Position numbers and translations under genes: made by a program
The notes under the pieces: model-generated
What the model saw: the letters and a program-made list of their open reading frames with translations, nothing else
Database searches by the model: none
What the model was told of the DNA's origin: nothing
Shown: positions 12,569 through 15,342 of the stretch, in pieces
Numbering within the stretch: the first letter of the stretch is position 1
Layout of the letters: the number at the start of each line of letters is the position of its first letter
Assembly: GCA_902535255.1 (NCBI GenBank)
Contig: CACASQ010000001.1
Coordinates: 186,001 to 250,000 of the forward strand
DNA from: an uncultured Pelagibacteraceae bacterium
GTDB taxonomy: Bacteria; Pseudomonadota; Alphaproteobacteria; Pelagibacterales; Pelagibacteraceae
Direction of reading: 5' to 3'
Length of the DNA: 64,000 nt

Positions 12569-12581
12569 TTTGAATTAATTA

Positions 12582-12609
12582 TTGAATCTCTTTTAAAGAG
12601 TTTTATATT
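12582..12609 (+). promoter_or_regulatory. Probable promoter of the tmRNA gene
   Basis: TTGAAT (12582-12587), a 16-base spacer and TATATT (12604-12609) lie immediately upstream of the first hairpin of the tmRNA precursor (12616-12629). Spacing and position fit a sigma-70 promoter, with a start near 12615. Confidence 0.55.
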
Positions 12610-12613
12610 AATA

Positions 12614-12876
12614 GTGTTGGTTTTCCAACTATGACGATAAACGAATTTCGTAATAAACATCACGGACGTGGGGGCAGTACCCACCACCTCCACCATTTAC
12701 AACTTACGGGGGTGAATCAGGATCGACGGGTGTCTAAAGGCTGTTCTTTCGTACGAGATGGTTCCGACGTAACGGGCCAATTTATAAATGCAAATCAAAA
12801 ATTTGCACTTGCAGCTTAATTAACTTAGTTAATTAAGTTACGGGGTTTGGGGCACCTGGCAACAGAACGCCCCTTA
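12614..12876 (+). ncRNA. ssrA: Circularly permuted (two-piece) tmRNA
   Basis: tmRNA rescues stalled ribosomes and tags the nascent chain. The 3' half comes first: a GTTGG-TTTT-CCAAC hairpin, the T stem GTGGG/CCCAC (12668-12672 with 12680-12684), the acceptor strand CACCTCC (12685-12691), A, and encoded CCA (12693-12695). After a 12-base spacer the 5' half starts with GGGGGTG (12708-12714). This pairs perfectly with CACCTCC and gives the G3-U70 alanine identity pair. The tag frame is 12790-12819, giving ANQKFALAA and stop. A 10-bp hairpin (12815-12837) spans the stop, and a GGGGC...GCCCC hairpin with a GCAA loop (12849-12873) closes the coding piece. This is the permuted alphaproteobacterial layout, and both exact termini are estimates. 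Confidence 0.93.
12849..12875 (+). repeat. 27-bp direct repeat, copy 1 (tmRNA 3' element)
   Basis: This is the 3'-terminal hairpin of the tmRNA coding piece: GGGGC, a CTG-GCAA-CAG inner hairpin, then GCCCC and TT. Exactly the same 27 bases recur at 14109-14135 in the same orientation. Further shared bases lie upstream (GTTAC seven bases before both copies). Confidence 0.9.
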
Positions 12877-12988
12877 CAACTTTACAATTTTCTTGATTAA
12901 TATTGCTAATTCAAATGACACAACCTGGCTTGCCGATGCCGTGACGAAATCTTATGAAAACTTTCGTTTCAATTTTTTTTATATGTCT

Positions 12989-13996
12989 TTAACAGGCATC
13001 TCCAGCATGAGATCGACATGCATCCATCGCCTCGGCGTCCGTTCCACCTGCCGCGTAAACTGCTAGCATTGCTTCAATTGCTGCCGCAGCTGCTGCTGCA
13101 CTCACCCCGGCCGCTACGGCTTCTGCAATAGCTGCGTCTACAGCACTACTAAACTCTTCTTCCATGCCTTCCATAATAATACTATCAAATTCTGCAGCCA
13201 TCTCTTCACCGATTGTTAAACTTAATGCAGCATCCAATTTCTGTTCCATAACTAAATTTACTTCTTCACCAATTATTTTTTGTAACTCTTTATTTTTTTT
13301 TAATTTTTGTTTTTTTAAAATGTAATCAATTTGTTCCAAAGTCATACTATACTTTGAAGCAAGTCTGACTTTTGCTTTAGCGACAGCTTTATCAATTTTT
13401 TTATCAAATTTTTTTATATTTAGAGCTACTGATTTTCCATCCTTAAGAGTAATATAATAATGGAAAGGTTCATTAGTGGTTGTTGTTACTTGAAAAAAAT
13501 TTGCCTGGTGTTTTGCTACGTATTTTCCTGTCCATTTTAACAATTCAATGCTTTTAAATTTAAGAATTATTTCTAATTCCTCTAAGTCTATTTCTAAGTT
13601 AAAAATTTTATCGCCACCATTATAGTATTTATCATTGAATTTATCTGAGATTACTACTAATTGTTTATTATTCGATATGTCTCTAATTTTGATTCCACCT
13701 GGTCTGTGCGTGTAAATTCTATATTTGCCGAAAATAACCTCATTTTTTTCATACTTTTCTTTACTATCTTTATAAGTTTTCACTCTTAAAACTTTATTTT
13801 GATCTCCTATTTCCTCACTTTGTTCGTCTTGATTTTCCATTTTATAAAGAATTTCTTTGGCATCACTATATTGTTTTTTTGAAATTTTTCCTGATTCTAA
13901 TAGTTTTTCTAGCTTATCTAGATTTTTTTCAATATCAGCAAAATTGTTCCCACTTAAAAACAAACCCAGTATCACAATCGCTAAAAATTTTTTCAT
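12989..13996 (-). CDS. Secreted protein of unknown function with SHOCT-like N-terminus and Ala-rich C-terminal tail
   Basis: I do not recognise this gene. From the ATG at 13996 it encodes 335 residues. A longer in-frame start at 14014 would put six residues before a clean signal peptide (MKKFLAIVILGLFLSGNNFA), so the shorter start is preferred. A short helical pair follows (LDKLEKLLESGKISKKQYSDA), resembling a SHOCT motif. The middle (about 75-190) is charged and probably beta-rich. The last 80 residues switch to acidic and then strongly alanine-rich helix (AAIAEAVAAGVSAAAAAAAI) and end with two cysteines (DACRSHAGDAC). The DNA for the tail (about 13010-13160) is far richer in GC than anything near it. 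It lies alone between two copies of the tmRNA 3' element. Confidence 0.75.
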   Translation of the reverse strand: MKKFLAIVILGLFLSGNNFADIEKNLDKLEKLLESGKISKKQYSDAKEILYKMENQDEQSEEIGDQNKVLRVKTYKDSKEKYEKNEVIFGKYRIYTHRPGGIKIRDISNNKQLVVISDKFNDKYYNGGDKIFNLEIDLEELEIILKFKSIELLKWTGKYVAKHQANFFQVTTTTNEPFHYYITLKDGKSVALNIKKFDKKIDKAVAKAKVRLASKYSMTLEQIDYILKKQKLKKNKELQKIIGEEVNLVMEQKLDAALSLTIGEEMAAEFDSIIMEGMEEEFSSAVDAAIAEAVAAGVSAAAAAAAIEAMLAVYAAGGTDAEAMDACRSHAGDAC

Positions 13997-14108
13997 ATTA
14001 CACGATGTTAGCATAATACTTGCCGAAGCTCTGCCGAAATTTCTTTTAAAGTTTTAGATTTTTAACAATTGCGAATGGCATATAATAAGGAATAATGTTA
14101 CAAAGTCC

Positions 14109-14135
14109 GGGGCACCTGGCAACAGAACGCCCCTT
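14109..14135 (+). repeat. 27-bp direct repeat, copy 2 (displaced tmRNA 3' element?)
   Basis: This is an exact copy of the tmRNA 3' hairpin at 12849-12875, 1260 bp downstream in the same orientation. GTTAC seven bases upstream and two further bases between also match, so about 39 positions align with five differences. No tag frame, T arm or acceptor stem accompanies it, so it is not a second complete tmRNA. It resembles the att-like remnant left when an element inserts at the 3' end of tmRNA. The surrounding 13997-14150 holds no gene that I can support. Confidence 0.8.
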
Positions 14136-14150
14136 TGAAAGAGTGAATAT

Positions 14151-14870
14151 ATGGAAAATCTTTATACAACTGGTAAATATACTAAACAGAATCCTAGCTA
14201 TCATGTCGAGGATAGTGAATTTAAAAGCAATAATTTTATAAAAATTCTCAAAAAAAATAATTTTAATTTTCATCAAATTTCTAATGTCATAGATGTGGGA
14301 TGCGGAGCAGGAAAAATACTTAAAATTTTTCAAAATAGTAATTTATTTAATAACCAAACCAATTTCAAAGGTTTTGATATTAATAGTGAAATCATAAATT
14401 TTGCTAATAAAGAAAAAAACAAAAACTTAAACTTTTATTGTGATGATTTTTTTAAATCAAATTCTTACGGTGAGTCTGATTTAATTATTTGTGCAGATGT
14501 ATATGAACACATTGAAGATTACATAGGATTTTTGAAAAAACTTTTACCCAGTGGAAAGTTTTTTTTATTCAATATACCTTTAGATATTTCTGTACGAACT
14601 TTATTAATAAATAAAGTTATTAATGAAAACTTTAAAAAGGTTGGCCATTTACACTTTTTTAATAAGAATATTGCAAGATTATTACTAGAATATTGTAATT
14701 ATGATATTATTGACACTTTATATGCAAAAAACTTTTTAGCGCTTAAGAAAAAAACGTTTAAACAAAAACTGTTAAGTATCCCAGTTAAAATTTTTGATAA
14801 AATAAGTGAAGACTTGAGTGCATCAATATTTGGTGGTTACTCTTTGGTGGTACTTGCAAAAAGAAGATAG
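14151..14870 (+). CDS. Class I SAM-dependent methyltransferase
   Basis: The 239-residue protein has the SAM-binding motif I VIDVGCGAGKILKIF (about residues 46-60), an acidic motif II loop (FKGFDINSEII) and ICADVYEHIEDY in the motif IV region. This pattern matches the UbiE/Methyltransf_11-12 superfamily. The substrate cannot be told from sequence. A purine-rich GAAAGAG lies seven bases upstream of the ATG, and the gene begins 15 bp after the second copy of the tmRNA 3' repeat. It is very AT-rich (many Asn and Lys), unlike the secreted protein's tail on the other side of the repeat. It could be island cargo or the original neighbour of tmRNA. Confidence 0.85.
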   Translation: MENLYTTGKYTKQNPSYHVEDSEFKSNNFIKILKKNNFNFHQISNVIDVGCGAGKILKIFQNSNLFNNQTNFKGFDINSEIINFANKEKNKNLNFYCDDFFKSNSYGESDLIICADVYEHIEDYIGFLKKLLPSGKFFLFNIPLDISVRTLLINKVINENFKKVGHLHFFNKNIARLLLEYCNYDIIDTLYAKNFLALKKKTFKQKLLSIPVKIFDKISEDLSASIFGGYSLVVLAKRR

Positions 14871-14893: not shown

Positions 14894-14974
14894 TCAAAAA
14901 ATATACTTATCAGCAATGTATAATAAAATTCCTATTCCAATACCCAAAAGTGCCCAATGAAAATTATTTTTCAT
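14894..14974 (-). CDS. 26-residue membrane microprotein coupled to the upstream pyrophosphohydrolase
   Basis: A very short frame starts at ATG 14974-14972, which overlaps the TGA of the upstream gene as ATGA, and ends at TGA 14896-14894. The peptide begins MKNNFHWALLGIGIGILLYI and ends with a short polar/aromatic tail. It is therefore a single predicted transmembrane helix with a basic N-terminus (probably N-in) and a GxGxG-like small-residue face. The overlap and the membrane-like composition argue that it is translated. Function unknown. Confidence 0.55.
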   Translation of the reverse strand: MKNNFHWALLGIGIGILLYIADKYIF

Positions 14975-15342
14975 ACTACAAATTTTTTTAAATTTGGTTC
15001 AAAATAGTTTGGTCCTTTCATAACTTTGCCTTGCTTATTATAAATAGGTCTGCCATCAGAACCAAGCTTACTCATATTTGACTTTTGCACTTCTAAAAAG
15101 CATTGATCTAGATTAATACCAAATGCATGTCCAGCTCCATAGGTGACATACAATATATCTGTAAGTGCATCAGCTACCTCTTTAATATCGTTTTTTTTTA
15201 TCGCATTTTTCAATTCTAACAGCTCTTCTTTTATAAGATCGTATCTTAAAGATGTAATTTTCTCGTTTGGAAAATCTGCTTTTTCTTTAATTTCTTGCCC
15301 AAAAGTTTTCATAAACTCTCTAACACATTCAAAGTTAGTCAT
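14971..15342 (-). CDS. MazG-like / PRA-PH-type nucleoside triphosphate pyrophosphohydrolase
   Basis: This is a 123-residue all-alpha NTP pyrophosphatase-like protein. The Mg-binding pattern of the superfamily is visible as KEELLELKNAI (EExxE type, about residues 38-48) and EVADALTDILYVTYG (ExxD type, about 55-69). The C-terminal GSDGRPIYNKQGKVMKGPNYFEPN segment is typical of the phage/bacterial subgroup annotated as phosphoribosyl-ATP pyrophosphohydrolase-like. Such enzymes hydrolyse (d)NTPs to monophosphates, often for nucleotide-pool cleaning. HisE proper is less likely, since no his genes are nearby. Its stop overlaps the 26-codon frame downstream. Confidence 0.85.
   Translation of the reverse strand: MTNFECVREFMKTFGQEIKEKADFPNEKITSLRYDLIKEELLELKNAIKKNDIKEVADALTDILYVTYGAGHAFGINLDQCFLEVQKSNMSKLGSDGRPIYNKQGKVMKGPNYFEPNLKKFVV

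Follow-up and report, generated by a model that had tools for sequence, protein, structure and literature searches.

A SAR11 gene for an alanine-rich protein lies in a probable integrase-free cassette at the tmRNA 3' end

The gene at 12989-13996 of the window (the whole stretch of 64,000 nucleotides analysed here, from an uncultured Pelagibacteraceae bacterium) is the sole large ORF between two identical 23-bp cores spaced 1,260 bp, the first of which is the end of the tmRNA gene. We consider it likely that this gene is carried as cargo by a minimal integrative cassette which is non-autonomous, has its insertion point at the tmRNA 3' end and is moved in trans. Duplication of the attachment core at both ends of the unit is as expected of an integrative element of the lambda/Tn916 type, and a tmRNA 3'-end repeat at the far boundary together with tandem units is as expected of an ssrA island of the Dehalococcoides type. 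A preliminary description of this DNA had hinted at a tmRNA-linked island, and that hint is the part of it that proved important. The features of the locus are as follows.

12578..12876 (+): permuted alphaproteobacterial tmRNA gene with tag ANQKFALAA (Rfam RF01849, 217 bits, E 1.5e-61; ARAGORN)
12851..12873 (+): core copy 1, GGCACCTGGCAACAGAACGCCCC, inside the tmRNA 3' end (repeat comparison)
12874..14110 (no strand): unit of 1,237 bp with one large ORF and identical cores either side
12874..12913 (+): first 40 nt of the unit, an S-type end arm of cluster S3 (8 units)
12931..12948 (-): S-side arm-type repeats TTCGTCA and ATCGGCA (minus-strand reading), 11 bp apart, imperfect
12989..13996 (-): cargo gene for a plausibly exported 335-aa protein with a SHOCT-like pair, a beta core and, as tail, Ala-rich helices that include two Cys
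12992..13162 (-): coding region for the final 57 aa, the conserved Ala-rich tail (family alignment, tail profile)
14010..14015 (-): TATGCT, by eye a candidate for the -10 element in the promoter of the cargo gene
14021..14038 (-): E-side arm-type direct repeats, TTCGGCA twice, 11 bp apart
14081..14110 (+): final 30 nt of the unit, an E-type end arm; 74 of 118 units fall in its single-linkage cluster, E1
14111..14133 (+): core copy 2, the same 23 bp as copy 1
14151..14870 (+): methyltransferase-like ORF (named by eye), starting 17 bp past core 2
14971..15342 (-): MazG-like gene (named by eye), the far host boundary of the locus

The tmRNA-end 25-mer (up to 2 mismatches) is present in 251 of 297 SAR11-family genomes, and at least two core copies anywhere in the genome were found in 113 of the 296 genomes counted, a figure that rests on 296 of the 297 rows and 250 of the 251 matching genomes. 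Prevalence is taken only from this genome-wide copy count, because the regions surveyed in detail were picked by copy number: 40 regions, mostly chosen for many copies, which with the window and L016 make 42. When cores with up to 5 mismatches were accepted as unit borders, 38 regions yielded 118 units of 75-7,496 bp (median 804.5 bp), the longest rows having up to eight core copies. Degenerate cores occur, and certain unit lengths recur exactly (386, 401, 327, 824 and 210 bp). Twenty further regions formed a second set for checking. Among the host markers of the 42 regions, ThyX was found in 32, MazG in 25, FumC in 23 and ThyX together with MazG in 21; the six regions without host markers are L062 and L016, in which the tmRNA is present, and L080, L084, L092 and L097, which have no tmRNA either. 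In these last four (genomes G083, G174, G128 and G188) cores and units lie at chromosomal sites without a tmRNA; the first core of L080 and L084 is preceded by a frame ending in AANL* (by eye), and L097 has eight cores. In the single-copy genomes G004 and G070 the core stands about 320-330 bp from MazG. Fragmented single-cell assembly does not by itself account for the arrays, as genome G003, a single contig that is 99% complete, has a unit of 2.3 kb in the interval from tmRNA to MazG. Two of 26 genomes of the sister family f2 have a second core within the DNA examined, one of them weak. A rare array-like case in that family is G418 (L157/L166), with a second tmRNA 3'-end fragment 326 bp past the first.

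One could suppose that the repeated tmRNA end is a mere terminator or small-RNA element that travels with genes and is no attachment site. The core is able to fold a short GGGC/GCCC hairpin and is placed between genes (by eye), but no terminator-like site was found in 12800-14200 of the window, the loop is conserved as well as the stem, and distal copies often lose the first pair of the stem (A or C for G). Moreover, the genome's own tmRNA variant is seen in both copies of G059 and in the first two of the three copies of G122. We regard this explanation as very improbable.

Of the ORFs within units, 132 of 166 (40 regions) are antisense to the tmRNA. Pfam families listed for 127 of the 166 proteins include type I restriction subunits, Mrr, MrcB and HNH, and ResIII with a methylase, the last being a type III system by PADLOC; superoxide dismutase, DUF805, trypsin-like and cupredoxin families are found as well. 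There is also a second class of units, in which one sense ORF follows soon after the core and fills much of the unit, with no clear arms (L061 unit 0, L069 units 3-4, L070 unit 0, L090 unit 0, and 14151-14870 of the window). The methyltransferase-like ORF at 14151-14870 is perhaps the remnant of such a sense-orientated unit, and a gene of this class that adjoins the tmRNA could use the tmRNA promoter.

The ends of many units carry direct repeats. Those near the E end lie ahead of the start of the cargo gene and are spaced 11-12 bp: spacings of 11 and 12 bp, counted over 104 units, occur 28 and 20 times at E ends, 32 and 3 times at S ends, and 2 and 4 times in middles. The arm-repeat test was passed by 41 E ends, 37 S ends and no middle among the 93 units of at least 600 bp. 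The repeat sequence varies by unit (TTCGGCA, TACGACC, TCCGCCC, TGCGTC, TGAGTCC, GGACGAGT and others), and yet the E motif is found again in the unit's own S end, in the same orientation, in 19 of 35 units and in the opposite orientation in one; the 35 are those that pass a strict E-end filter out of the 104 units of at least 350 bp. Permutation of this E/S motif sharing gave a mean of 2.6 and a maximum of 8, with 0 of 2000 permutations reaching 19, and in the second set, where 10 of 19 units pass the filter, sharing is seen in 9 of the 10 (0 of 5000 permutations reach it); since units that are nearly identical were each counted, these figures are not exact probabilities. Arms are absent from many of the short units. 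The window unit has arm-type direct repeats inside both ends (TTCGGCA twice at E, TCGGCA at S, where the pair is imperfect), and the 6-mer TCGGCA is common to the two sides.

Seven SAR11 integrase loci with a tRNA served as a control. Where the integrase reads away from the tRNA, three of four loci (L169, L171, L178) have a 7-8 bp repeat with 11-bp spacing, 47-56 bp from the tRNA end, and the fourth, L173, has 5-mers only (by eye). The repeats lie directly before the integrase ATG in L169 and L171, and in L178 only if the start is a later ATG than the one called. Two of the remaining three loci have a 12-bp-spaced repeat and one has none; as background, a repeat of at least 7 bp is contained in 14% of random 300-bp windows. 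The control integrases have about 65-80 residues before the Int_N match (above cut-off in L169, just below it in L171 and L178, none in L173), which we take to be the place of the arm-binding domain, as in the lambda and Tn916 integrases. The cargo gene of the cassettes takes the position held by the integrase gene in integrase-encoding SAR11 elements.

Read together, these features suggest how a unit such as that of the window may come and go. It would enter by site-specific recombination at the tmRNA 3' end, which would duplicate the 23-bp core, and it would retain what an integrase of the lambda/Tn916 type needs, namely the core and unit-specific repeats with 11-bp spacing at both ends. A heterobivalent integrase of another element (phage, satellite or other), acting in trans, would then excise and insert the unit, and newcomers would probably land at the tmRNA core and displace older units outwards. 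The candidate promoter of the cargo gene overlaps the repeats, at the position where integrase-encoding elements have the start of their integrase gene, so that an integrase bound at them, as predicted, could also silence the cargo. Similarly placed candidate -10 elements are found in related units; the promoter scan did not list TATGCT at 14010..14015. A wider reading, which is quite possible and which we put forward tentatively, is that SAR11 maintains an economy of integrase-free cassettes: units, mostly of one or two genes, with lambda-type arms, for which the tmRNA 3' end would be a shared landing platform, outside integrases the machinery, and the arm repeat the address of the helper. 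The array would therefore serve as a varied stock of genes for secreted proteins, defence and stress, open to exchange.

Units bordered by core copies at this recurrent host locus are shared between genomes and between genera. Recurrent units, several of them complete, occupy different array positions in different genomes. A Mrr-type unit of G283 and G081, which belong to two genera (g1-g2), is 91.9% identical over 80% of the shorter unit, against 75% in the host flank; units L093_4 and L097_6 (g2-g4) are 93.8% identical, with no host-flank value. A usable host-flank value exists for 35 of the 65 cross-genome unit pairs; the identity of the unit exceeds that of the flank in 25 of these and does not in the other 10. 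None of five single-copy loci proved to be a clean empty site. Among them G128 alone had a flank that matched those of last copies at a similar offset: the flank of its single core resembles the one that follows the final core in G205 (82% over 228 bp) and in G231 (82% over 222 bp). The same flank resembles those of internal cores in G203, G110 and G227 (71-76%), and so it may itself be a unit. No excised circle was seen.

These data bear on whether the units are mobile at all. They might be decayed remnants of phages or islands that have lost their integrases, are immobile, and spread by homologous replacement of the whole tmRNA-MazG interval. The absence of a recombinase from the arrays (among the families listed), the degenerate cores and the failure to find a clean empty site all agree with this, as does the accretion of islands at tmRNA that is already known from the portion of PMC3146451 used here. 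The empty-site result makes the cassette reading, and likewise the wider reading of a cassette economy, slightly less secure and the remnants slightly more credible. Against immobile remnants, three findings point to selection for mobility: unit lengths recur exactly, the same unit is met at differing array positions and across genera at 92-94% identity, and the motifs match in an end-specific manner. On balance we find it unlikely that the units are remnants of this kind.

If the window unit is moved, it is not by an enzyme of its own: a tyrosine integrase is absent from it, the cargo gene being its sole large ORF. No PF00589 match was obtained inside arrays in the 36 genomes searched, of which 2 are single-copy and 34 have arrays or additional cores, and neither a recombinase of any kind nor a serine recombinase module is among the Pfam families listed for the 127 of 166 unit proteins, one list holding the best 25 of 28. 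Outside the arrays, 29 of the 36 do have a PF00589 match; in most cases it is one lone Xer-like recombinase, some 304-325 aa long, encoded on a different contig or at a distance. This enzyme is family-wide: it was found in 109 of 147 SAR11-family genomes, in 47 of the 53 that are of high quality, and in 13 of 14 genera. An example is L118:4846-5757(+) (G000:C3), which has orthologues with recurring neighbours, among them sugar-type genes (by eye); G000, which is 84.6% complete, has no further PF00589 match.

Such a resident recombinase could act on the tmRNA core, and the arrays might then be an integron-like host system. Its wide distribution and constant neighbours fit this idea. So do scores far under the XerC/XerD cut-offs, the report, in the portion of PMC2731167 used here, of P. 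ubique without dif/Xer, and the state of the sister family, where second cores are few and most genomes examined have two recombinases of higher score (the one scanned being XerD-like). However, the enzyme consists of SAM-like and catalytic domains only, with no extra N-terminal stretch, and so the unit-specific repeats are left unexplained; it also occurs in genera with few or no second cores, and it is unlinked to the arrays. We judge a host system built on this enzyme to be improbable; transport in trans by the integrase of another element is the preferred reading. Among the best-scoring PF00589 matches of 397 genomes, 12 loci (about 1.5 kb each side) contain no core that would mark a tmRNA-specific helper, and they sit by tRNAs or away from any core.

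Viral sequences were considered as a source of a phage attP that carries the core. The exact 23-mer occurs in 8 viral stretches, all of which have the whole tmRNA (ARAGORN), and this candidate was rejected. In a looser viral search an 18-mer added only L167, and one arm pattern gave 0 matches; L167:11187-11204 is an 18-bp match to the tmRNA 3' end in a phage-like stretch of 63% GC with no tmRNA by ARAGORN. The eight phage-like stretches (L100-L107) have a whole permuted tmRNA with the exact SAR11 3' core and, in 7 of 8, the tag ADENLALAA. Since the phage tmRNA has this core, cassettes could land there as well.

Integron gene cassettes form rows of small units with a short repeated recombination site between them, and the SAR11 arrays are likewise rows of small units split by a short repeated site. 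They differ from integrons in lacking an integron integrase (three orphan recombinases score 22-33 bits for the IntI type versus a cut-off of 265), in using part of the tmRNA as the repeated site, and in that many units come with a leader of their own and many ends with arm repeats. The nearest precedent is provided by the ssrA islands of Dehalococcoides which, in the portions of PMC2764846 and PMC3146451 used here, lie in tandem downstream of the tmRNA gene with repeats of about 20 bp of the tmRNA 3' end, 11 of them in strain VS; 16 islands have a serine-recombinase module (DsiB/DsiA), 15 are without it, and accretion was proposed. Site, tandem layout and the existence of islands without an integration module are alike. 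In contrast to what these portions describe, the SAR11 units are far smaller (median about 0.8 kb) and often hold one or two genes, no recombinase was seen in their arrays (among the families listed), and many ends have unit-specific arm repeats that resemble those of tyrosine integrases. Nearest in lifestyle, as far as the portion of PMC10872708 used here goes, is the additive flexible island fGI-2 of Ca. Methylopumilus, which belongs to another lineage and uses a tRNA-Lys where the SAR11 units use the tmRNA; that portion speaks neither of arm repeats nor of single-gene units. Tycheposons, according to the same portion, are elements of 4-200 kbp of streamlined marine bacteria with a tyrosine recombinase that integrate at small RNA genes; the SAR11 units share the small-RNA-gene target but are mostly below 2 kb and have no tyrosine recombinase. 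What sets the arrays apart from the known systems is the size of the units, the lack of a recombinase in the arrays (among the families listed), and the unit-specific arm repeats. We recognised no description of a SAR11 tmRNA array in the literature searched, which excluded bioRxiv preprints and most subscription articles, and the main text of PMC7318151 contains 0 occurrences of tmRNA.

The cargo itself is less of an orphan than first described. Its reading frame, 12989-13996 (-), is uninterrupted and gives 335 aa when counted from the ATG at 13996, while an alternative in-frame ATG at 14014 would lengthen the product to 341 aa. The architecture given in the preliminary description is all present: a signal peptide (assigned by eye), a helical pair, a charged middle and the terminus DACRSHAGDAC. 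Its orphan status was not borne out, as a profile search found relatives at E <= 1e-90 in 10 of 397 SAR11-family genomes; GTDB species genomes hold 8 family loci, 5 of which (L017, L018, L020, L021, L022) are from genomes already among the finds of the profile search. An alignment of 13 members has a conserved core (YRIYTHRPGG ... GKYVxKH ... PFHYY ... ALN) and a conserved tail (GxSxAAxxAxxxA ... AxGG ... AC ... GxxC) with nine invariant columns. Each of the 13 members has exactly two Cys outside the signal peptide (by eye), both within the last ten residues, in an alignment from which the N-termini of L019 and L020 are missing. The preliminary description had proposed a possible surface, pore-like or cell-contact module; the constant pair hints no further than at Ala-rich C-terminal helices probably closed by a disulfide.

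The abrupt change in composition had raised the suspicion that the tail has a separate origin or is under unusual codon selection. The DNA is indeed GC-rich (0.570 at 13010-13160 versus a window mean of 0.296), and the highest GC among 6385 sampled 151-bp windows, 0.589, is found in the neighbourhood of the tail. This GC is high mostly because of an alanine-rich composition, Ala making up 33% of the last 75 codons and 5% of the preceding ones. The increase is greatest at codon positions 1 and 2, and GC3 is modestly up too (0.32 versus 0.19); with tail GC3 of 0.14-0.22 in relatives (L002, L004) and 0.38 at the end of L003, unusual codon selection is weak at most. With alanine codons as the main source of the GC, a foreign origin is not required, and we reject one in view of the conservation of the tail together with the body in all 13 members and of a tail profile that matches family members only: at E <= 0.01 it found one ORF apiece in 7 of 197 SAR11-family genomes, every one a family member, and no ORF outside the family in the 197. 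The preliminary description had looked to a known core SAR11 family, with the same tail at non-island loci, as evidence against its reading; what was found largely comes to this, in a family that is accessory and not core. Two of the 13 members are at a tmRNA, that of the window and that of L016, where the gene lies just past the second core, and the other 11 have no tmRNA in the DNA examined around them. A tRNA is near the family gene in L018 (tRNA-Arg) and L032 (tRNA-Leu). Three members (L021-L023) sit between a TPR-like gene and a large exported protein, which in L021 is caspase-like by eye.

It is plausible that the 335-aa protein is exported and has a SHOCT-like pair. SHOCT (PF09851) is matched by 4 of 13 members at E <= 0.1 (best 4.9e-8), so the proposed likeness holds for a helical pair near the N-terminus in several relatives, but the window protein is unmatched, and the beta core and tail of the cargo family are explained by no family. 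An AlphaFold2 model of moderate confidence (mean pLDDT 68) has helices at 22-34 and 40-58, strands between 72 and 192, and C-terminal helices at 194-215, 220-243, 254-295, 300-315 and 320-334. Used as a query, the predicted structure gave no convincing hit in Foldseek (best E 0.036) and a best Z of 6.1 in VIA-align (64 residues, 2.2 A), a range that the tool deems common, so no fold is claimed. The best E of a sequence-profile search of the PDB was 0.33, PADLOC left the window protein unmatched, and no viral relatives of it were found. A gliding-motility family of NCBIfam was matched by 2 of 13 members at 1.7e-4, with nothing common to more members. A head-morphogenesis family of PHROGs was matched by 6 of 13, not including the window protein (best 8.7e-5); we gave it no weight, the family proteins being helix-rich.

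These arrays bear on how genes are gained and swapped in streamlined SAR11 cells. The odd Ala-rich exported protein gains a context as cargo of a mobile-looking unit, and not as a patchwork of foreign DNA. The tmRNA arrays would be one place of entry for restriction and other phage-defence genes. Helper integrases are predicted, and they can be searched for via the arm repeats. With a short, searchable signature, the tmRNA-end core with 11-bp-spaced repeats, one could count gene flow in data from single cells and long reads. If the proposed reading is true, one of the most abundant bacteria would hold a reservoir of cassettes at the end of its tmRNA gene.
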